Shown here piece after piece: positions 15,992 through 60,333 of a DNA stretch of 64,000 bases (position 1 is the stretch's first letter; each line of letters begins with the position of its first letter). The stretch covers positions 62,001 through 126,000 of the forward strand of contig NZ_JADOVG010000003.1 in the NCBI RefSeq assembly GCF_015752205.1, given 5' to 3'. Position numbers and translations under genes: made by a program. This stretch comes from Polaromonas sp. CG_9.7. GTDB taxonomy: Bacteria; Pseudomonadota; Gammaproteobacteria; Burkholderiales; Burkholderiaceae_C. The notes under the pieces are model-generated. The model worked only from the letters and a program-made list of their open reading frames with translations, did no database searches and had not been told where the DNA came from.

Positions 15992-16004
15992 GCTGGCCCG
16001 GTGA

Positions 16005-16074
16005 TTGCTATAAAATAAGTAGCTGCTTGCGCCCGTACAGTATGCGCAAAAGCACTATTTCATTCATAAATGAT
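16005..16074. repeat. Family P palindromic repeat, copy P1, overlapping the dnaE stop
   Basis: About 70 bp with the inverted cores GTAGCTGCTTGCGC and TATGCGCAAAAGCAC, flanked by ATTGCTATAAAAT and TTCATTCATAAAT. The reverse complement aligns with the copies inside gluQ (28311) and the RND adaptor gene (53287). It fills the convergent tolA-dnaE gap and supplies the last codons and stop of dnaE. Confidence 0.75.
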
Positions 16075-19000
16075 ACGTGCGAGGCCGTTGTCGGCCTGCG
16101 CCGTCCAGCTGGCCAGTGCCGCGTCGGTCGGGAAAAACCGGGCAGCGTCGCCCAGCTGCAGCTCGGCCGTCGCACCCTGGCGGCGCAGGCTCAGCCGCAC
16201 GGCCAGGCCACGCACCGGCTCTGACACATCGGCCAGGCCGCTCTGGCGCGGCGGAAAGTCCCGGACCAGCCTTGAAATGTCCGGCACCGTGCCATTGACC
16301 GCGACGCGCAGGAACTTGCCAAAACGGCAACGCGCCGACTCCAGGTCCCAGACCTGCGTCAGCTTGAAGCGCCGGCCAAAGCGCTCGGACGCGCCCTGCA
16401 GCGTTCCCTGCACCACCACCAGCTCGTCCTCTTTCAGCAAATTTCGGTTGGCGTTGTAGGTCGCCTCGTCCACCGAGGCTTCCAGCACGTCGGTCTTGTC
16501 ATCCAGCTTGAAGATGATCAGCTTGCCACGGTTGCCATTGATGATGCGCATGTCGGTGACGATGCCCGCCAGCAATTGCGAGTCCCGCGAGTCGATCAGG
16601 TCGTCGATCTTTCGCTTGGCGAACTGCCGCACTTCCTGCTCCACCTCGTCAAACAGGTGGCCCGACAGGTAAAAGCCGATGGCGGTTTTCTCGAGCACCA
16701 AACGCGCCTTGACGCCGAACATGGGCGCCGCGACCAGCTCCGGCTCCTGCGTGCTGGCCGCGTGCGAGTCGGACATGTCGAACAGGCCGCTCTGGTTGGC
16801 ATTGGCCTGCGTGGCGGCAGAAAAATCAAAGGCGCGTTCGACCGATGCCATCAACTCGGCGCGGTTCAGGTGCAGCTTGTCGAAAGCGCCCCCCTTGATC
16901 AGCGCTTCGACCGTGCGCTTGTTCAGCTTGCTGCGGTCCACGCGCACACAGAAATCGTACAGCGAGGTGAACGGGCCGCCTTCCTTGCGGGCGGCGACGA
17001 TGGCGGCAATGGCCTGCTGGCCGGTGCCCTTGATGGCCCCCAGCCCGTAGCGCACCGACCGGGCGGTGATCGGCTCGAAACGGTAGTCGCCCTCGTTGAT
17101 GTCAGGCACCTCGAAGGTCAGCCCCATCTTGTGCGCGTCGCCAAAAAGGATTTTCAACTTGTCGGTGTCGTCCATTTCAACGGTCATGTTGGCCGCGAAG
17201 AATTCGGCCGGGAAATGCACCTTGAGCCAGGCCGTGTGGTAGGCCAGCAGCGCATAGGCGGCGGAGTGCGACTTGTTGAAGCCGTAGCCCGCGAACTTTT
17301 CCATCAGGTCGAACACCTCGTCGGCCTTTTCCTCGGTCAAGCCATTGATGCCGGCGCCCTTGCGGAAGATTTCCCGGTGCTGGGCCATCTCCTTTTCGTC
17401 CTTCTTGCCCATCGCGCGGCGCAGCATGTCGGCGCCGCCCAGCGAATAGCCGCCCAGGATCTGCGCGGTCTGCATCACCTGCTCCTGGTACACCATGATG
17501 CCGTAGGTTTCCTCCAGCATCGGCTTGACGCGCGGGTCCGGGTATTCGGGCACTTCCTTGCCCTGCTTGCGGGCAATGTAGGTTGGAATCAGGTCCATCG
17601 GGCCGGGACGGTAGAGCGCGTTCATCGCGATCAGGTCTTCGAGCCGGTCCGGCCGCGCGTCCTTCAGCATGCGCTGCATGCCGATACTTTCAAACTGGAA
17701 CACGGCTTCGGTCTTGCCATCGGCGAACAGCCGGTAAACCCGCGCATCGTCGAGCGGCAGGTCTTCAAACTTGAAGTCCTTTTGCGCCGGGTAGCGGGCG
17801 ATGATGAACTCGCGCGCAATTTCCAGAATGGTCAGCGTGGCCAGTCCCAAAAAGTCGAACTTCACCAGGCCAATCGCCTCGACGTCGTTCTTGTCGTACT
17901 GGCTGACCGCCGACGTGCTGCCGGGCTGCAGATACAGCGGGCAGAAGTCGGTCAGCTTGCCCGGCGCAATCAGCACACCGCCGGCATGCATGCCGACGTT
18001 GCGCGTCAGGCCTTCAAGCTTGCGCGCCAGCTCCAGCAGGGTGCGGACGTCTTCTTCCTTGGCTTCGCGCTCGGCCAGAATGGGCTCGGCTTCCAGCGCA
18101 TAGACCATCTTGTCGTTTTTCTTGCGGTCGGCCGGCACCAGCTGCAGCGTGACGGCCTGGCCGGGCTTGTTCGGAATGAGCTTGGAAATGCCGTCGCAAA
18201 AGCCGTAGGGAAAGTCCAGCACCCGGCCCACGTCGCGAATGGCCGCGCGCGCTGCCATGGTGCCAAAGGTGACGATCTGGCTGACGGCCGTATGACCGTA
18301 CTTGTCCTTCACGTAGTCAATGACGCGGTCGCGGTTGCTCTGGCAAAAATCGATGTCAAAGTCGGGCATCGAGACGCGCTCGGGGTTCAAAAAGCGCTCG
18401 AACAGCAGGTTGTAGCGCAGCGGGTCGAGGTCGGTGATCTTCAACGCATAGGCCACCAGAGATCCGGCACCGGAGCCGCGTCCCGGCCCCACCGGGCAGC
18501 CGTTGGCCTTGGCCCACTGGATAAAGTCGCCGACGATCAGGAAGTAGCCGGGAAAACCCATCTTCAGGATGGTGTTGATCTCGAACTCCAGCCGGGCGAC
18601 GTATTCAGGCCGCTTCGCGTCGCGCAGGGCCGGGCTCGGGTAGAGGTGCAGCAGCCGCTCTTCCAGCCCTTCGAAGGACGTGTGGCGAAAATAGTCTTCA
18701 GGCAGCATGCGAACGCCATTGACCTCGGGCGTCGGGAATTCGGGCAGCATGGGCTTGCCCAGCTCCAGCGTCAGGTTGCAGCGCTTGGCGATTTCGACCG
18801 TGTTGGCCAGCGCCGACGGCACATCGGCAAACAGCGCCTGCATTTGTGCCGATGACTTGAAATACTGCTCGCGGGTGAACTTGCGCACCCGGCGCGCGTT
18901 GCCCAGGATTTCGCCTTCCGAAATACACACCCGCGCTTCATGCGCCTCGTAGTCGTCGTATGTCAAAAACTGGACCGGATGCGTGGCCACCACCGGCAGC

Positions 19001-19581
19001 TTGAGTTGTGCCGCCAACTGCACGGCAGCCCGGACATGCCGTTCGTCATCGACATGTCCGGAGCGCTGCAACTCCAGGTAAAAGCGCTGCGGAAACATGT
19101 TGGAGAAGTGCTGCGCGCATTCCGCCGCCCGCGCGTTGTCGCCCTGGACCAAGGCCTGACCCACGGCGCCGCGCTGCGCGCCTGACACGGCCAGCAACCC
19201 TTCGTTGAGTTCCTGTAGCCACTGCAGCTTGACGACCGCCTGGTCGCGCACCACGTTTTTGGTCCATGCGCGCGTGATCAGCTCGCACAGGTTGAGGTAA
19301 CCCTGGTTGTCCTGCACCAGCAGCAGCAAGCGCGACGCTGGCGCACTGGCTTCCTTGCCGGGCGATTCGAGCCAGATGTCGGCGCCGATCAAGGGCTTGA
19401 CCCCGACCTTGCGGCCTTCCTTGTAAAACTTGACCGTGCCAAACAGGTTGCTCAGGTCGGTGATAGCCAGCGCGGGTTGCTGGTCGGCGGCGGCGGCTTC
19501 AACAATTTCATCGATGCGGTTGGTACCGTCAACGACTGAAAATTCGGTGTGGATTCTTAAATGGACAAACATGCGGCTCAT
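16060..19581 (-). CDS. dnaE: DNA polymerase III alpha subunit
   Basis: The 1173-residue replicative polymerase subunit. The N-terminal PHP domain starts with FVHLRIHTEFSVVDG, and its first metal motif is degenerate as in Escherichia coli DnaE. The polymerase palm has the catalytic aspartates in PDFDIDFCQSNRDRV near residue 405, with GPGRGSGAGSLVAYAL just before. A C-terminal OB fold begins near LLAGIVTDMRIINGNRGK. Two ATG codons (19581, 19572) are possible starts. The terminal residues Ile-Tyr-Glu and the stop lie inside repeat P1. Confidence 0.96.
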   Translation of the reverse strand: MSRMFVHLRIHTEFSVVDGTNRIDEIVEAAAADQQPALAITDLSNLFGTVKFYKEGRKVGVKPLIGADIWLESPGKEASAPASRLLLLVQDNQGYLNLCELITRAWTKNVVRDQAVVKLQWLQELNEGLLAVSGAQRGAVGQALVQGDNARAAECAQHFSNMFPQRFYLELQRSGHVDDERHVRAAVQLAAQLKLPVVATHPVQFLTYDDYEAHEARVCISEGEILGNARRVRKFTREQYFKSSAQMQALFADVPSALANTVEIAKRCNLTLELGKPMLPEFPTPEVNGVRMLPEDYFRHTSFEGLEERLLHLYPSPALRDAKRPEYVARLEFEINTILKMGFPGYFLIVGDFIQWAKANGCPVGPGRGSGAGSLVAYALKITDLDPLRYNLLFERFLNPERVSMPDFDIDFCQSNRDRVIDYVKDKYGHTAVSQIVTFGTMAARAAIRDVGRVLDFPYGFCDGISKLIPNKPGQAVTLQLVPADRKKNDKMVYALEAEPILAEREAKEEDVRTLLELARKLEGLTRNVGMHAGGVLIAPGKLTDFCPLYLQPGSTSAVSQYDKNDVEAIGLVKFDFLGLATLTILEIAREFIIARYPAQKDFKFEDLPLDDARVYRLFADGKTEAVFQFESIGMQRMLKDARPDRLEDLIAMNALYRPGPMDLIPTYIARKQGKEVPEYPDPRVKPMLEETYGIMVYQEQVMQTAQILGGYSLGGADMLRRAMGKKDEKEMAQHREIFRKGAGINGLTEEKADEVFDLMEKFAGYGFNKSHSAAYALLAYHTAWLKVHFPAEFFAANMTVEMDDTDKLKILFGDAHKMGLTFEVPDINEGDYRFEPITARSVRYGLGAIKGTGQQAIAAIVAARKEGGPFTSLYDFCVRVDRSKLNKRTVEALIKGGAFDKLHLNRAELMASVERAFDFSAATQANANQSGLFDMSDSHAASTQEPELVAAPMFGVKARLVLEKTAIGFYLSGHLFDEVEQEVRQFAKRKIDDLIDSRDSQLLAGIVTDMRIINGNRGKLIIFKLDDKTDVLEASVDEATYNANRNLLKEDELVVVQGTLQGASERFGRRFKLTQVWDLESARCRFGKFLRVAVNGTVPDISRLVRDFPPRQSGLADVSEPVRGLAVRLSLRRQGATAELQLGDAARFFPTDAALASWTAQADNGLARIIYE

Positions 19582-24468: not shown

Positions 24469-24492
24469 ACCAATTTTTACCACTAAATTGGT
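24469..24492. promoter_or_regulatory. Candidate operator in front of doxX
   Basis: A perfect 8-bp inverted repeat, ACCAATTT and AAATTGGT, with an 8-bp spacer lies in the AT-rich gap upstream of doxX. The size and symmetry suit a dimeric repressor. The binding protein is unknown. Confidence 0.45.
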
Positions 24493-24542
24493 CTTTAGCG
24501 CTTACTATATATGCACTTATAGCTATTAATTAAGTAGCAAAA
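24493..24542. repeat. Family P palindromic repeat, copy P9 (diverged)
   Basis: A diverged 50-bp copy with GCGCTTACTATATATGCAC, then TTATAGCTATTAATTAAGTA. It matches the distal half of the family in the same orientation as the gluQ copy. It directly adjoins the candidate doxX operator. Confidence 0.5.
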
Positions 24543-27679: not shown

Positions 27680-27740
27680 CCAAAATGCAGCCGCTTCCTT
27701 TGACATAGTGTTACGCGAACCGACGATGCAAGCCAGCACA

Positions 27741-27860
27741 GCGAGCGTAGAAGCACCCCCTCCCACCCAGCAGGGGCCGTGGAACCGGCTTTGCCGGGTC
27801 ACAGGCGCAGCGGCCCTCTCGGGGGGCAGCGAACCACGCGAAGCGGGGAGCGTGGGGGCG
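27741..27860 (+). repeat. Family R dispersed repeat, copy R3
   Basis: A full copy with CACCCAGCAGGGGCCGTGG, ACCGGCTTTGCCGGG, GGCGCAGCGGCCCTCTCGGG and the end AAGCGGGGAGCGTGGGGGC. It ends 12 bp before gluQ and is open in frame with gluQ, in the same frame used by copy R1 with ybgC. Confidence 0.85.
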
Positions 27861-27872
27861 ATACCTAGTAGC

Positions 27873-28898
27873 GTGGCGGCCATCTACCAGGGTCGGTTTG
27901 CCCCCTCCCCGACCGGCCCGCTGCACGCCGGCTCACTGGTCGCCGCACTGGCCAGCTGGCTGGACGCGCGGGCGCACAGCGGGCAGTGGCTGGTGCGCAT
28001 CGAAGACGTCGACACGCCGCGCTGCGTGCCGGGCGCCGACCTGACCATCCTGCAGCAACTCGCCGCCTGCGGGCTGGTGCCCGACGCACCGCCGGTTTAC
28101 CAGTCGCAGCGCAACGCGTTTTACCAGCAGGCACTTGACCAGCTGGTGCTAGGCGGCAGGGCGTATCCCTGCGGCTGCACGCGCCAGGACATTGCCCGCG
28201 CACTGGCCGCATCGGGACATTCACGGCAGCGGCACAGCGAACTGGTCTATCCGGGCACCTGCCGCCAAGGCCTGCAGGGACGGCCAGCGCGGGCTTGGCG
28301 CTTCCGGACTGATAAAAATGAACCAAAACCTGCTCTTGCGCAAGCTGGATGGGCGCAAGCAGCTATTGATTTCATAGTTAACCCTGCCAGCAGGGTAGCA
28401 GAAGCAAACGTACGCTGGCGCGACCGGCGGCTCGGCGCGCAAGGCCAAAATGTCAGCCGCGAGGTGGGCGACTTCGTGCTCAGGCGCGCCGATGGCCTGT
28501 GGGCTTACCAGCTGGCCGTGGTGGTCGATGACGCTGCGCAAGGCATCACCGATGTGGTGCGCGGCGCTGACCTGGCCGACAACACGGCGCGGCAAATCCT
28601 GCTGCAATCCGCGTTGGGCCTGCCAACGCCGCGCTACCTGCACACGCCTTTGGTGCGGGGCGCGAATGGCGAAAAATTGTCCAAGCAAAACGGCGCGCAG
28701 GCGCTCGACACCCATGACCCGCTCGCAGCGCTGAACCAGGCGGCTGGCGTGCTGGGCCTGCCGGCGCAGACCGGTACGATGGCCGATGCGCTGGCCAGTT
28801 GGGTGAACGCCTGGCGGAACCTGCAGGCTCTTCCTGCGCAGGGTCCGGCTTGCGGCGATGACCTTTTCGCAAAACATCCGCGTCAGCCGGTGCAGTGA
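27873..28898 (+). CDS. gluQ: Glutamyl-Q tRNA(Asp) synthetase
   Basis: A truncated glutamyl-tRNA synthetase paralogue that attaches glutamate to queuosine in tRNA-Asp. It has the HIGH-like motif [15 protein letters not shown], the zinc ligands in YPCGCTRQD and YPGTCRQG, and the KMSKS-like [12 protein letters not shown] 27873 gives 341 residues, longer than the usual ~300. The excess is a block of about 25 residues near position 150 that is translated from repeat P2. The frame is open upstream through repeat R3 to 27660. Whether the enzyme tolerates the insertion is unknown. Confidence 0.87.
28311..28378. repeat. Family P palindromic repeat, copy P2, inside gluQ
   Basis: A 68-bp copy wholly inside the gluQ reading frame, with cores CTCTTGCGCAAGCTGG and GGGCGCAAGCAGCTATTGAT. 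It encodes [19 protein letters not shown]. The adaptor protein at 53240 has the matching peptide ESKLPSAQAGRVQAAPDS. Confidence 0.8.
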
Positions 28899-29933: not shown

Positions 29934-29996
29934 TTTTGCTACTTAAACAATAGCTGTTAGCGCAGACACAGCACGCGCAAGATGCCTTTTTAATGC
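29934..29996. repeat. Family P palindromic repeat, copy P7
   Basis: A diverged copy in the gap before trmB: TTTTTGCTACTTAAACAATA, then GCTGTTAGCGC and GCACGCGCAAGATGCC. It has the same layout as P1. Confidence 0.55.
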
Positions 29997-30044
29997 GTAA
30001 AACCTGGTTTTCTAGCCGAAATGAATGCACATTAAAATCGCCGG

Positions 30045-31784: not shown

Positions 31785-32110
31785 TTGCATAAGTCGCAGA
31801 TGTCGGGTCAGGCTTCGCCAACCTGACATCTGTCGCGTCAGCAGTGCTTGAGGCACAAAAGTAACGATCAAGCAGAGCGTGAAGCTGTTGGCGAACGAGC
31901 GGTCAAACCAGCAAGCCAAGGCATGGGTCCCTAGCTGCCGATCAGAGAACCCAAGGCCAAGCGAAGCGATGGCCCGTCAGAGCGTTCAGCTCTGATCCGC
32001 TCCCGCTGCCCAAGGCAACTTTCTTTGGTGACTTTCTTTTTTGCCAGAAAAGAAAGTTACCCCCCGCCGGGAAGGCGCTCACCCCTCAAACCACAGAAGA
32101 TATTACCCAG
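31785..32110. other. Gene-free structured region with several hairpins
   Basis: No convincing coding frame. Several nested inverted repeats stand out. CAGATGTCGGGTCAGG pairs with CCTGACATCTG at about 31798-31833, AGAGC pairs with GCTCT around 31979-31992, and ACTTTCTTTT pairs with AGAAAAGAAAGT at about 32030-32056. The last could act as a bidirectional transcript end between the convergent neighbours. The whole block resembles a dispersed element, but it appears once here. Confidence 0.45.
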
Positions 32111-32127
32111 CGCCCCATGCCGAAGTA

Positions 32128-32172
32128 CAAAAAAAGAGCCATCAATGCGCAAGCGTTAGCAGTTGTCAAAAA
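32128..32172. repeat. Possible family P half copy
   Basis: AAAAAAAGAGCCATCAATGC then GCGCAAGCGTTAGCAGTTGT resembles half of the palindromic family. It lies just behind the stop of the transglutaminase gene. The match is weak. Confidence 0.3.
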
Positions 32173-34193: not shown

Positions 34194-34279
34194 GGGTGGC
34201 AAGCGTAACAAAGAATTTTTAGCCGCCCATATGGTGGAGCGAAAACCCTGATGGCGCACAAGTCGGATAAAACTCGATC

Positions 34280-34343
34280 GCTACTGAATTAATAGCTTCT
34301 TACCCATACCAGATATGCGCCGGAGGCCTATTTCATTAAAAAT
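34280..34343. repeat. Family P palindromic repeat, copy P4
   Basis: GCTACTGAATTAATAGCTTC, then ATACCAGATATGCGCCGG and CCTATTTCATTAAAAAT, line up with P1 along its whole length. It lies just behind the boxA stop. Confidence 0.6.
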
Positions 34344-34377
34344 CAACCCATTGATTGAAACCAATGCGCTCTGGCAG

Positions 34378-43107: not shown

Positions 43108-43181
43108 TGGAGGCGCGGCCCGGAGTCGAACCGGGCTAGCCGGATTTGCAATCCGGTACATAACCGCTTTGTTACCGCGCC
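43108..43181 (-). tRNA. tRNA-Cys (anticodon GCA), copy 1
   Basis: A 74-nt tRNA with encoded CCA. The acceptor is GGCGCGG with CCGCGCC, and the anticodon loop ATTGCAAAT gives GCA. It is identical to the copy at 43406. Confidence 0.93.
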
Positions 43182-43215
43182 CTCTTTTTCGTTTTATTTT
43201 TCAAACTCTCCAACC

Positions 43216-43247
43216 AAAAAGGGCAGCATTTTGAAGTGCTGCCCTTT
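43216..43247 (-). terminator. Intrinsic terminator between tRNA-Gly and tRNA-Cys, copy 1
   Basis: On the minus strand GGGCAGCA and TGCTGCCC form an 8-bp stem followed by a run of T. An identical hairpin is at 43514. Confidence 0.75.
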
Positions 43248-43251
43248 GAAT

Positions 43252-43327
43252 TGGAGCGGGAAAAGAGGCTCGAACTCTCGACCTCAACCTTGGCAAGGTT
43301 GCGCTCTACCAACTGAGCTACTCCCGC
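43252..43327 (-). tRNA. tRNA-Gly (anticodon GCC), copy 1
   Basis: A 76-nt tRNA with encoded CCA. The acceptor is GCGGGAG, the D-loop is AGCTCAGTTGGTAGAGC, and the anticodon loop CTTGCCAAG gives GCC. It is identical to the copy at 43550. Confidence 0.93.
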
Positions 43328-43405
43328 GAGTCTAGCTGCAAATTATAGCTTGGTTTTTTGACGTTCAAGTTAATCAAATGAAAAACTTAAACGTCTGTTT
43401 ATTCC

Positions 43406-43479
43406 TGGAGGCGCGGCCCGGAGTCGAACCGGGCTAGCCGGATTTGCAATCCGGTACATAACCGCTTTGTTACCGCGCC
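43406..43479 (-). tRNA. tRNA-Cys (anticodon GCA), copy 2
   Basis: Identical to the tRNA-Cys at 43108, exactly 298 bp away, as part of a tandem duplication of the Gly-terminator-Cys unit. Confidence 0.93.
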
Positions 43480-43513
43480 CTCTTTTTCGCTTTATTTTTC
43501 AAACTCTCCAACC

Positions 43514-43545
43514 AAAAAGGGCAGCATTTTGAAGTGCTGCCCTTT
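43514..43545 (-). terminator. Intrinsic terminator between tRNA-Gly and tRNA-Cys, copy 2
   Basis: The same GGGCAGCA/TGCTGCCC hairpin with T-run as at 43216, duplicated with the tRNA pair. Confidence 0.75.
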
Positions 43546-43549
43546 GAAT

Positions 43550-43625
43550 TGGAGCGGGAAAAGAGGCTCGAACTCTCGACCTCAACCTTGGCAAGGTTGC
43601 GCTCTACCAACTGAGCTACTCCCGC
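43550..43625 (-). tRNA. tRNA-Gly (anticodon GCC), copy 2
   Basis: Identical to the tRNA-Gly at 43252. It is the first gene of the leftward tRNA group, 62 bp behind lon. Confidence 0.93.
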
Positions 43626-53239: not shown

Positions 53240-54403
53240 TCACTTCGCGCCGGAAGCAGACGCCGCTGGCGCAGCCAATACCGGCTTTGCTATTGAATCA
53301 GGAGCTGCTTGCACCCGCCCTGCTTGCGCAGAAGGGAGTTTTGATTCATAAATAGTGACTTTCTGACCGGGCGACAGCACATGCACGCCGGCGCTGACCA
53401 CCAGCATGCCCGGCGTCAGGCCAGCGCCGACCACGATCTCATTGCCATCGGCGGTGGCCACTTGGACGACCTGCGACCTGACCGTCATGCTGGACTTGTC
53501 CAGCACCCACACAGCGGTGGCATTGCCCTCCTGGCGCAAGGCGCTGGTGGGCAGCTTGATGACCGGCGTGCCGGTGGCAGCGCCGCTGTCCAGAATGGCA
53601 TAGACCGTCGCGCCCAGCGGCGGTGCCTTGCCCTCGATCGACACCTTGACCGGGTACGTGCGCGTCACCGGGTCGCTGCTGGCGGCCACCTCGCGCACCG
53701 CACCTAGCAGCTCGGTGCCCTGCGCCCAGACGCGAATGCGAACCGGCGCGCCCGTCTTGATGCCGGCCACCCTGTCCTCAGGCACAGAAAACACCACGTC
53801 GCGCACGCCATCGGCGGCAATGCGTACCACGGTGGCGCCAGGGGCGACGACCTGGCCCGGCTCGGCCTCCACTGCCGTCACCACGCCGGACACATCGGCC
53901 GTCAGCACCGCATAGCCGGTCTGGTTGCCCTGCACCGCCGACTGCGACTGAGCCTGCTCCAGTTGCGCCTGCGCGGCCTTCAGGGTCGCCTCACGGCGCT
54001 CCAGTTCGGCGCCGCTGATGAAGTTTTGATCCTTCAGCGCCTGGTAGCGCTTGAAATCGGCGGCGGCCAGGTTGCGGTTGGTGGCGGCAGCGGCTACCTG
54101 CGCGCGAGCTGCCTCGGCGGCCAGGCGGTAATCCTGTGGGTCGAGCTGCGCCAGCACCTGTCCGGCCCTGACCTGCTGGCCGAGTTCAGCCTGCCGCTTG
54201 ACGAGCTTGCCGCCAATCCTGAAACCCAGCCGGGATTCGACCTGGGCACGGACTTCACCGGCATATTCCCGGCTGGGGGCATAGGCGCTGGTGCCGACGG
54301 TGATGACCTTTACGGCGCGAACCGGCTCCTCGGGCGGCGCGGGCCGTGAGCAGGCGACCAGCAGCAAGGCGGCGCCTGCCAGGGAAACAACGGTTTTATT
54401 CAT
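53240..54403 (-). CDS. RND efflux adaptor (membrane fusion) lipoprotein
   Basis: A 387-residue periplasmic adaptor. The lipoprotein signal ends LLLVACS (Cys18). The lipoyl half-motifs GKLVKRQAELGQQVRAGQVL and VVTAVEAEPGQVVAPG flank a coiled-coil hairpin (about 85-155). The last ~35 residues are largely translated from repeat P3 (ESKLPSAQAGRVQAAPDS) and are not part of the fold. It is divergent from hpnC across a gap with two palindromes. Confidence 0.9.
   Translation of the reverse strand: MNKTVVSLAGAALLLVACSRPAPPEEPVRAVKVITVGTSAYAPSREYAGEVRAQVESRLGFRIGGKLVKRQAELGQQVRAGQVLAQLDPQDYRLAAEAARAQVAAAATNRNLAAADFKRYQALKDQNFISGAELERREATLKAAQAQLEQAQSQSAVQGNQTGYAVLTADVSGVVTAVEAEPGQVVAPGATVVRIAADGVRDVVFSVPEDRVAGIKTGAPVRIRVWAQGTELLGAVREVAASSDPVTRTYPVKVSIEGKAPPLGATVYAILDSGAATGTPVIKLPTSALRQEGNATAVWVLDKSSMTVRSQVVQVATADGNEIVVGAGLTPGMLVVSAGVHVLSPGQKVTIYESKLPSAQAGRVQAAPDSIAKPVLAAPAASASGAK
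53287..53355. repeat. Family P palindromic repeat, copy P3, inside the adaptor gene
   Basis: A 69-bp copy in the 3' end of the adaptor gene: TTTGCTATTGAATCAGGAGC, CTTGCACCCGCCCTGCTTGC, GTTTTGATTCATAAATAG. On the coding strand it has the same frame as the gluQ copy and encodes a related peptide. Confidence 0.8.
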
Positions 54404-54535: not shown

Positions 54536-55399
54536 ATGAATCCAGGCCCCACTTCTTCTTCTGCGCACCCCGCCAGCCTGCAAGGCGTCAGCCATTACGA
54601 GAATTTTCCGGTGGCCACGGTGCTGTGTCCGCCACATTTGCGCCCAGCCATCGCCGCCATCTACTGGTTTGCCCGCATCGCCGACGACATTGCCGACGAA
54701 GGCGACGCGCTGCCGCAAACCCGGCTGGACGACCTGGCCGCCTACCGCGCCGACCTGATGGCGACCGCCGCCGGCTTGCCGCCTTCGCCCCGCTGGGCAG
54801 AGGTGTTCGGGCAGCTCGGCCCGGTGATCCGGCAGTTCGATTTGCCGGTGCCTCTGCTGGCCGACCTGCTGAGTGCTTTCGAGCAGGACGTGGTCAAGCA
54901 GCGCTATGCGAGTCAGGCCGAACTGCTGGACTACTGCCGCCGCTCGGCCAATCCGGTCGGCCGGCTGCTGCTGCATTTGTACGGCGTGAACGATGCCAAA
55001 TCATTGGCGCAAAGCGACTGCATCTGCAGCGCATTGCAGTTGATCAACTTCTGGCAGGACCTGGGGGAGGATATTGCGCGTGGACGGATTTATTTGCCCG
55101 CCGTCAGCTGGGCCGCGAATGGCGTCGATGAGGCGCAGTTGCTGAGGTTGGAAAGCCACCAAAATACTTTAAATTTAATAGCTGACAACGCACGCCAGGC
55201 GGGCGCCATGATGCGAAAAGGTTCAAAACTGGTGAAAAAGGTCCCCGGACGCGGCGGCTGGGAGCTGCGCCTGGTGGTCCAGGGCGGCCTGAGGATTCTG
55301 GAAAAGATCGAGGCACAGGGCTTTGACACGCTGAGGCGGCGGCCCAAGCTTGGCGCATGGGATGTGGTCGTGATGGGCTGGCGCGCTCTATGGATGTAA
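54536..55399 (+). CDS. hpnC: Hydroxysqualene synthase HpnC
   Basis: A 287-residue trans-prenyltransferase-like enzyme that turns presqualene diphosphate into hydroxysqualene. It has the aspartate-rich helix FARIADDIADEG and the second motif INFWQDLGEDIARGRIYLP. ATG 54536 is preferred over ATG 54497, which would extend into the promoter palindrome area. It is followed by hpnD and hpnE, which together give squalene for hopanoids. A short AT-rich word near 55170 faintly resembles repeat family P. Confidence 0.92.
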   Translation: MNPGPTSSSAHPASLQGVSHYENFPVATVLCPPHLRPAIAAIYWFARIADDIADEGDALPQTRLDDLAAYRADLMATAAGLPPSPRWAEVFGQLGPVIRQFDLPVPLLADLLSAFEQDVVKQRYASQAELLDYCRRSANPVGRLLLHLYGVNDAKSLAQSDCICSALQLINFWQDLGEDIARGRIYLPAVSWAANGVDEAQLLRLESHQNTLNLIADNARQAGAMMRKGSKLVKKVPGRGGWELRLVVQGGLRILEKIEAQGFDTLRRRPKLGAWDVVVMGWRALWM

Positions 55400-60272: not shown

Positions 60273-60333
60273 TATTGCTATTTTTTTAATAGCTACTTGC
60301 ACTTTTTTTCTTGGACAGGTGCTGATTTTTATG
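60273..60333. repeat. Family P palindromic repeat, copy P6 (diverged)
   Basis: ATTGCTATTTTTTTAATAGC, TACTTGCACTTTTTTTC and GGTGCTGATTTTTATG line up with P1. It lies just behind hemH and an AAAAAACC/GGATTTTTT arm pair that may end transcription. Confidence 0.5.

Follow-up and report, generated by a model that had tools for sequence, protein, structure and literature searches.

RESULTS

A palindromic repeat in gluQ, in an RND adaptor gene and at the end of dnaE

The window, by which we mean the whole stretch of 64,000 nucleotides of Polaromonas sp. CG_9.7 that was analysed, contains three protein genes that carry or end in a copy of one palindromic repeat, together with further copies of the same repeat. 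The genes and the copies matched by our model of the element (R1) are listed below; A0 denotes the antisense frame starting at the element's end.

16060–19581, minus strand: dnaE, DNA polymerase III alpha subunit, which ends inside the element (NCBIfam NF004226, 1427 bits)
27873–28898, plus strand: gluQ, tRNA glutamyl-Q(34) synthetase, host gene (NCBIfam NF004313, 473 bits; start codon chosen by eye)
53240–54403, minus strand: RND efflux periplasmic adaptor gene, host gene (NCBIfam TIGR01730, 223.6 bits)
16003–16071, plus strand: element copy overlapping the 3' end of dnaE (R1, 76.6 bits)
28314–28382, minus strand: element copy inside gluQ, read in A0 (R1, 67.9 bits), corresponding to GluQ residues 148–170 with the start used here
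53285–53353, plus strand: element copy within the RND adaptor gene, at its C-terminal tail, read in A0 (R1, 66.2 bits)
29934–30002, plus strand: intergenic element copy (R1, 55.0 bits), absent from the six relatives listed with both flanks
34276–34344, plus strand: intergenic element copy (R1, 44.3 bits), shared with Polaromonas sp. CG9_12
24474–24542, minus strand: intergenic element copy (R1, 34.6 bits)
60273–60318, plus strand: partial element copy (R1, 27.0 bits)
55162–55230, plus strand: weak element-like copy (R1, E 0.004), with a like-scoring match between the same flanks in CG9_12 (c3:117162)
from 31718: weak element-like copy (R1, E 0.008)

R1 was built from a gapless alignment of 69 columns (A1) and was used for searches of the genome and of the window. 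A1 comprises 22 exact-core copies from Polaromonas sp. CG_9.7, those of dnaE and gluQ among them, and the adaptor copy. The 22 were drawn from 30 core loci that were inspected; seven lacked the second core in register and one (L021) was taken as a chance match. Two loci left out of A1 because their second core is out of register (L005 and L026) nevertheless resemble weak copies. The element is an imperfect palindrome of 69 bp that consists of a small left palindrome (GCTAT...ATAGC), the core AGCTGCTTGCGC, ten variable bases, TGCGC and a right A/T-rich end. The exact core occurs 41 times in the genome, some of these occurrences being due to chance, and the same letters in reversed order do not occur at all.

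Both the alignment and the R1 matches bear out the original prediction that the copies in gluQ, in the adaptor gene and at the end of dnaE belong to a single palindromic family. A weight-matrix scan of the window gave 10 matches scoring at least 15, whereas 10 shuffled windows gave none scoring at least 10. The expectation of about six further intergenic copies was near the mark for the window, where four were found at E < 1e-5 in addition to the two weak ones. Copies in the window with E < 1e-5 have a GC content of 28–48% and, apart from the partial one, a length of 69 bp. The matches listed for the CG_9.7 genome are also 69 bp long, and a few in CG9_12 measure 61–71 bp. At the site of the copy at 24474–24542, no element was seen in the eight relatives listed with both flanks; one relative (G046) has a short AGCTGCTTGCG hairpin there.

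Three other features of the window were noted. Just upstream of gluQ, a stretch that is GC-rich by eye (27739–27879) has about 20 dispersed matches listed in relatives, at 78–96% identity, and is possibly a BRE (Beta-proteobacterial repeat element). A second dispersed repeat of about 230–330 bp, present in many copies in relatives and often as closely spaced inverted pairs, lies at 31836–32164. Finally, two tRNA gene pairs with equal scores and an offset of 298 bp (43111–43625) look like a tandem duplication.

Copy number, range and distribution

In the R1 search, the genome of Polaromonas sp. CG_9.7 gave at least 150 matches with E up to 2.3e-6, and the weight-matrix scan found 36 copies on its 280-kb contig C3, about one per 7.8 kb. 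At least 150 copies each were also detected in Polaromonas sp. CG9_12, Acidovorax sp. MH_R1_24 and Rhodoferax bucti, and 21 in Curvibacter delicatus; the Acidovorax, Rhodoferax and Curvibacter genomes were chosen for this search since their gluQ carries the block. Two findings that would have told against the original prediction, a genome with no further copies and a gluQ peptide in distant genera unaccompanied by a DNA repeat, did not materialize: copies are many, and the three other genomes also carry the dispersed repeat. Among 120 genomes drawn from the order, 118 gave no match at E up to 1e-6, although the filters were strict and the model came from one genome, so that weak copies elsewhere may have escaped. 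Both genomes that did match belong to the window's family; where a family was listed for the matchless genomes, one belonged to the window's family and 19 to others. Plasmid and phage collections gave no element match, although this test is weak, being made with a single diverged copy as query and lacking a positive control.

Of the best 150 matches in CG9_12, 149 lie on the main contig, where they are split 75 to 74 between the strands and have a gap coefficient of variation (CV) of 0.98, and a replication-polar or evenly spaced motif was rejected on these data. Contig C3 of CG_9.7 gave a gap CV of 0.66 (p 0.005), which the larger sets did not uphold, and a 400-kb stretch of CG9_12 gave 0.87 (p 0.18). 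Likewise, the strand lean in these two syntenic stretches (23 versus 13 on C3 and 41 versus 20 in CG9_12) is not genome-wide. The CG9_12 contigs other than the main one (C5) hold only one of the best 150 matches, below expectation by rounded length.

Both flanks of 27 of the 36 copies on C3 were located in the CG9_12 stretch, the other nine being without orthologous context. Of these 27 sites, 22 were scored as shared by script, five of them less certain as they sit in gaps unlike the element in size; two more were shared by eye and three were absent. The three missing copies correspond to differences of 112–147 bp, not 69 bp; inspection of these occupied and empty sites by eye showed no target duplication. 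Gain or loss of 69 bp alone was not observed at any of the 27. Most element sites are old and shared.

Host genes and reading frame

In total, 158 distinct copies were collected, 151 of them with 400-bp flanks. A first in-gene rule applied to the 151 placed 15 copies inside a coding frame (12 in A0, 2 in S1 and 1 in A2), and a second rule gave 27 candidates (19 in A0, 4 in S1, 3 in A2 and 1 in S0). One copy (L191) is A0 by the first rule and S0 by the later one; this copy and L006 were left out of the NCBIfam scan, which took the other 25 candidates. Twenty of the 25 matched a family, several of them under the curated cut-off, and 16 of these 20 are read in A0, 3 in S1 and 1 in A2. The five without a match comprise three in A0 and two in A2. 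Around twenty recognisable protein genes of this genome contain the element, mostly in one frame:

Frame A0: WaaA, PurK, a NodT-type outer-membrane protein, an S1-domain protein (Tex by PDB match), an ABC permease (weak match), HrpA, a NuoE-NuoF protein, a ligase-associated DEXH helicase, a PdxR-like regulator, CobU, MutL, TruB, HemD, DNA polymerase IV, GluQ and the RND adaptor
Frame S1: MetH, LeuS and an RhtB-like exporter
Frame A2: PurL

As had been proposed, gluQ and the adaptor gene, whose translation across the element is IYESKLPSAQAGRVQAAPDSIAK, share one frame, antisense frame 0 (A0). Thirty copies from Acidovorax, Rhodoferax and Curvibacter yielded seven in-gene calls, six in A0 (one being gluQ again) and one in S1. 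If stop codons alone decided the frame, the probability of at least 16 of 20 copies in A0 would be 4.5e-9 (taking an A0 share of 0.186) or 8.8e-8 (taking 0.226, the A0 share given by 135 copies outside genes). The A0 excess among in-gene copies is real. In 55 intergenic copies, the frames found open were S0 in 14, S1 in 17, S2 in none, A0 in 13, A1 in 5 and A2 in 21. A0 is thus not favoured over S0, S1 or A2 among the open frames of intergenic copies; the bias arises in genes, and an open A0 is not a built-in property of the element. The idea that the element is selected to keep one frame open finds no support here; the predicted resemblance to Rickettsia palindromic elements (RPE), as a dispersed palindromic repeat translated in unrelated proteins with one preferred frame, does. 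The in-gene copies look filtered, and selection at the level of the peptide is the likely cause of the A0 excess.

The copies in gluQ, dnaE and the adaptor gene

Among 80 named gluQ orthologues, 31 have an element match on the same strand and at the same site (E up to 0.1), 25 of them at E < 0.001, which rules against reading the gluQ copy as a recent insertion: it is old. With the exception of one partial match, the distance between the start of the element match and the protein match is a multiple of three. Of the 32 rows that carry the element, one has a loop of 19 residues between the anchors and the others have loops of 25–36, compared with 4–13 residues in 41 of the 48 rows without it, so that element-bearing loops are about 20 residues longer; the remaining seven rows, at 18–40 residues, may hold decayed or foreign inserts. 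A gluQ tree of the window and 79 of the 80 orthologues (one had no open reading frame by the rule used), computed with the element block left out, implies at least 15 changes of element state, a rough figure because the tree has modest support. Element gains or precise losses have recurred at this site. The PDB alignment of GluQ breaks at the element block, and the extra length is seen from the orthologue comparison instead. In the AlphaFold2 model, residues 149–176 have pLDDT values below 50 and lie between two strands; the block is thus predicted to form a floppy, disordered loop. One gluQ row (L102) has a different short repeat-like stretch in the same loop, which may therefore accept several repeat families.

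At the end of dnaE, the protein enters the element in A0 and stops on the element's own TGA, in keeping with the predicted Ile-Tyr-Glu-stop; the element supplies the last three residues and the stop codon. This copy is found in the same place in the six relatives listed with both flanks (of eight searched), most weakly in G004, and the letters of the stop read the same in these six by eye. In the adaptor alignment, two of 30 Polaromonas rows (L120 and L122) end without the tail.

Copies with and without added protein length

A uniform 23-residue insertion was not upheld by PDB alignments read by eye. Compared to their PDB homologues, again by eye, the net length difference is 0 for PurK, +4 for TruB and about 0 for LeuS, and approximately +20 for MetH, +11 for PurL and +10 for Tex. 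Across the element, PurK and its PDB homologue align gap-free, with AQQAALQIA in the homologue opposite AQAATKSIA in the element. In Polaromonas, the 30 best PurK rows (from 85 matching genomes) are all of equal length at the element, with element-matrix scores above 30 in 29 rows and of -7 in one. TruB has one length in all 30 rows (from 97 matching genomes) whether or not the element is detected; a match at E up to 0.01 is present in 15 of the 30, its own copy included. Added host-protein length is seen in gluQ and MetH and is absent in PurK, whose unchanged length speaks against taking every in-gene copy as an insertion. Length-neutral copies are either insertions trimmed to native length, or were copied over native codons, or were built in place.

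Nucleotide-level constraint

Codon use was compared within and outside the element in the 30 best-scoring rows each of PurK, TruB and the adaptor. A fixed A/T-ending codon was defined as an amino-acid-conserved position at which at least 80% of rows have the same A/T-ending codon. Such codons make up 7 of 15 positions in the element versus 11 of 304 elsewhere in PurK (p 2.5e-6), and 4 of 9 versus 3 of 272 in the adaptor (p 1.7e-5); for TruB the counts, 1 of 6 versus 2 of 203, are not significant (p 0.08). The isoleucine codon ATA, for instance, is kept in 97% of PurK rows. Third-position GC for PurK, the adaptor and TruB is 0.36, 0.41 and 0.50 in the element versus 0.84, 0.84 and 0.77 elsewhere. 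The overall same-codon fraction is no higher in the element for PurK (0.762 versus 0.776) or TruB (0.585 versus 0.647) and slightly higher for the adaptor (0.802 versus 0.755). For GluQ, 2 of 4 positions in the element versus 1 of 171 elsewhere are fixed A/T-ending codons and the same-codon fractions are 0.769 versus 0.701, figures that are biased because 27 rows, besides the window, were picked for carrying the element.

Divergence was also assessed in 20 copies common to Polaromonas sp. CG_9.7 and CG9_12, with denominators given as columns times copies. The left palindrome and the second core together differ at 33/420 positions, compared with 213/1200 in the adjacent 30-bp flanks (p 3.6e-7). 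The first core, which differs at 42/240, has no advantage in conservation over these flanks; the loop, at 64/220, diverges more than they do (p 1.9e-4). When two poorly flank-aligned copies are omitted, the differences in arms and loop persist (p 1.0e-4 and 3.7e-5). Since the first core resembles the flanks, and DNA 30–100 bp from the shared copies is 0.86–0.89 identical, constraint on the element is neither uniform nor large. The faster divergence maps to element columns 31–41; in the copy at C3:180125 all 11 of these bases changed at once, which hints at exchange between copies.

DISCUSSION

A repeat probably tolerated in genes mainly through one reading frame

We lean, if only slightly, towards the view that this 69-bp palindromic repeat of the Comamonadaceae spread as a small non-autonomous mobile element and persists in genes where A0 adds, or substitutes, a short Ala/Gln-rich peptide that the host protein tolerates. 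By analogy, it most likely works like the Rickettsia palindromic elements, being old in the family and without a gene of its own. Copies would arrive by transposition or by templated copying through some enzyme, and new copies within genes would be removed by selection unless a frame stays open and the peptide is harmless. Although S0, S1 and A2 are equally open, such selection would favour A0 (xxNxPLAQAGRAQAAIxSIA). The arms would still be recognised by a protein, either a mobilising enzyme or a chromosomal DNA-binding protein, and on this proposal the A/T-ending codons would stay fixed because of that recognition; their fixation makes continued recognition of the element directly testable. 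The loop would be free to vary, or be exchanged between copies, and hence change fastest. In favour of this reading are the copy numbers, the A0 excess, the longer gluQ loop with its recurrent changes and predicted disorder, the slower divergence of the left palindrome and second core, and the fixed A/T-ending codons of PurK and the adaptor. What simple insertion does not predict is the equal length of PurK, the single length of TruB in 30 of 30 rows and the near absence of net change in LeuS. Further points against it are the C3 copies missing from CG9_12 as differences other than 69 bp, the unraised same-codon fractions of PurK and TruB, the unexceptional first core, the sole Y1 transposase match with no element beside it and, as a weak test, the lack of plasmid or phage matches.

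Two of these genes, PurK and TruB, bring in the main rival, a selected DNA site forming in place, which we consider a serious but distinctly less probable explanation. The repeat would then be a chromosomal site recognised by a nucleoid, repair or uptake protein; it would arise and be maintained in place by substitutions or by transformation-driven conversion, as uptake sequences are, and coding copies would occupy positions at which the native peptide was similar to the A0 peptide from the start. PurK and TruB, with the element and no difference in length, are as this rival expects, and so is the AQQAALQIA of the PurK homologue. Also in agreement with it are the fixation of ATA and other A/T-ending codons in PurK and the adaptor, the sharing of most flanked C3 sites with CG9_12 and the location of 149 of the best 150 CG9_12 matches on the main contig. 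However, the gluQ loop differs in length by about the size of the element, as does MetH by about 20 residues by eye; copy number is uneven, from none found to at least 150; the best CG9_12 matches are randomly spaced without strand bias; and neither PurK nor TruB has a raised overall same-codon fraction. In its boldest form, which we put forward only tentatively and regard as unlikely, a family-wide 69-bp site selected through a putative protein would overprint native codons in place, keeping length as in PurK and mostly using one frame, and would have reshaped around twenty enzymes of one genome while holding rare codons fixed across the genus.

An element acting at the RNA level, as a transcript hairpin that serves as terminator, stabiliser or processing site, is improbable. 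The sequence is palindromic, and flanking coding signal has its 3' end toward the element in 64 cases versus its 5' end in 29, but the consensus structure has four pairs, three of them invariant and none with two-sided change; five copies folded as DNA gave two z-scores below -3, one of -2.2 and two of -1.4 or weaker; Rfam at the gathering threshold matched only tRNAs in the window; and in-gene copies are mostly antisense to the gene. Structured RNA was rejected as a candidate given the weak support from the Rfam scan, covariation and folding. Somewhat less probable again is that the copies are dead relics of an old expansion, conserved in genes only through the protein. Most sites are indeed old and shared, and neither the overall same-codon fractions nor the first core reveals excess conservation; against this, shared copies show less divergence in the left palindrome and second core than in the flanks next to them, and A/T-ending codons remain fixed.

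Comparison with known systems

Nothing on the element was found in open-licence full texts, including a search by the letters of the core. That it is the BRE is very improbable: part of the BRE description (PMC3110155) has these repeats dispersed in Bordetella and Polaromonas with some copies within coding sequences, which the element resembles, but gives a length of about 90 bp, a mean GC of 69% in Bordetella and a frequent tandem arrangement, as opposed to 69 bp and 28–48% GC in the window, a separation made by description and not by sequence.

REPs share with the element their short palindromes and high copy number, but are 20–40 bp long with a GTAG or CGTC tag at one end, as stated in a portion of PMC3733652; neither tag is present at the ends of our 69-bp consensus. 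A link to a RAYT did not emerge either, since the 3.3-kb locus of the sole Y1_Tnp match in the genome has no element at E up to 1. Bacterial MITEs, ERIC among them, are described in a section of PMC10969869 as small, palindromic, without a gene of their own and sometimes in frame in genes. The element matches them in all these respects; at the three occupied/empty sites, which differ by 112–147 bp, a target duplication was not seen by eye. Uptake motifs are about 10 bp in length, unlike the 69-bp two-part palindrome found here. DNA uptake sequences otherwise offer a likeness in their many motif copies, numbering hundreds, also within genes and with an orientation bias, according to part of PMC2346458.

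The best-known palindromic repeats that code for protein are those of Rickettsia, an intracellular genus with AT-rich DNA. The closest likeness of the present element is to these repeats, in that a palindrome is translated inside unrelated genes into a conserved peptide, with 16 of 20 in-gene copies in A0. RPE are palindromic repeats in frame inside unrelated protein genes with one conserved peptide, about 150 bp long, and R. conorii has 44 integrations, nearly half of them in open reading frames (from the part of PMC10969869 that treats them). The element here differs in its length of 69 bp and its at least 150 copies, in the smaller part found in genes (20 family-identified copies, and 27 candidates, among 158), in its hosts, which are genera with free-living members, and in that some copies are in place without added length. 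The hosts here are GC-rich bacteria from several genera, some of them free-living, and four of their genomes have at least 150 copies each; they allow tests that Rickettsia hardly permits, namely of frame choice against stop codons, of gain and loss in gluQ, and of DNA-level against protein-level constraint within the same codons.
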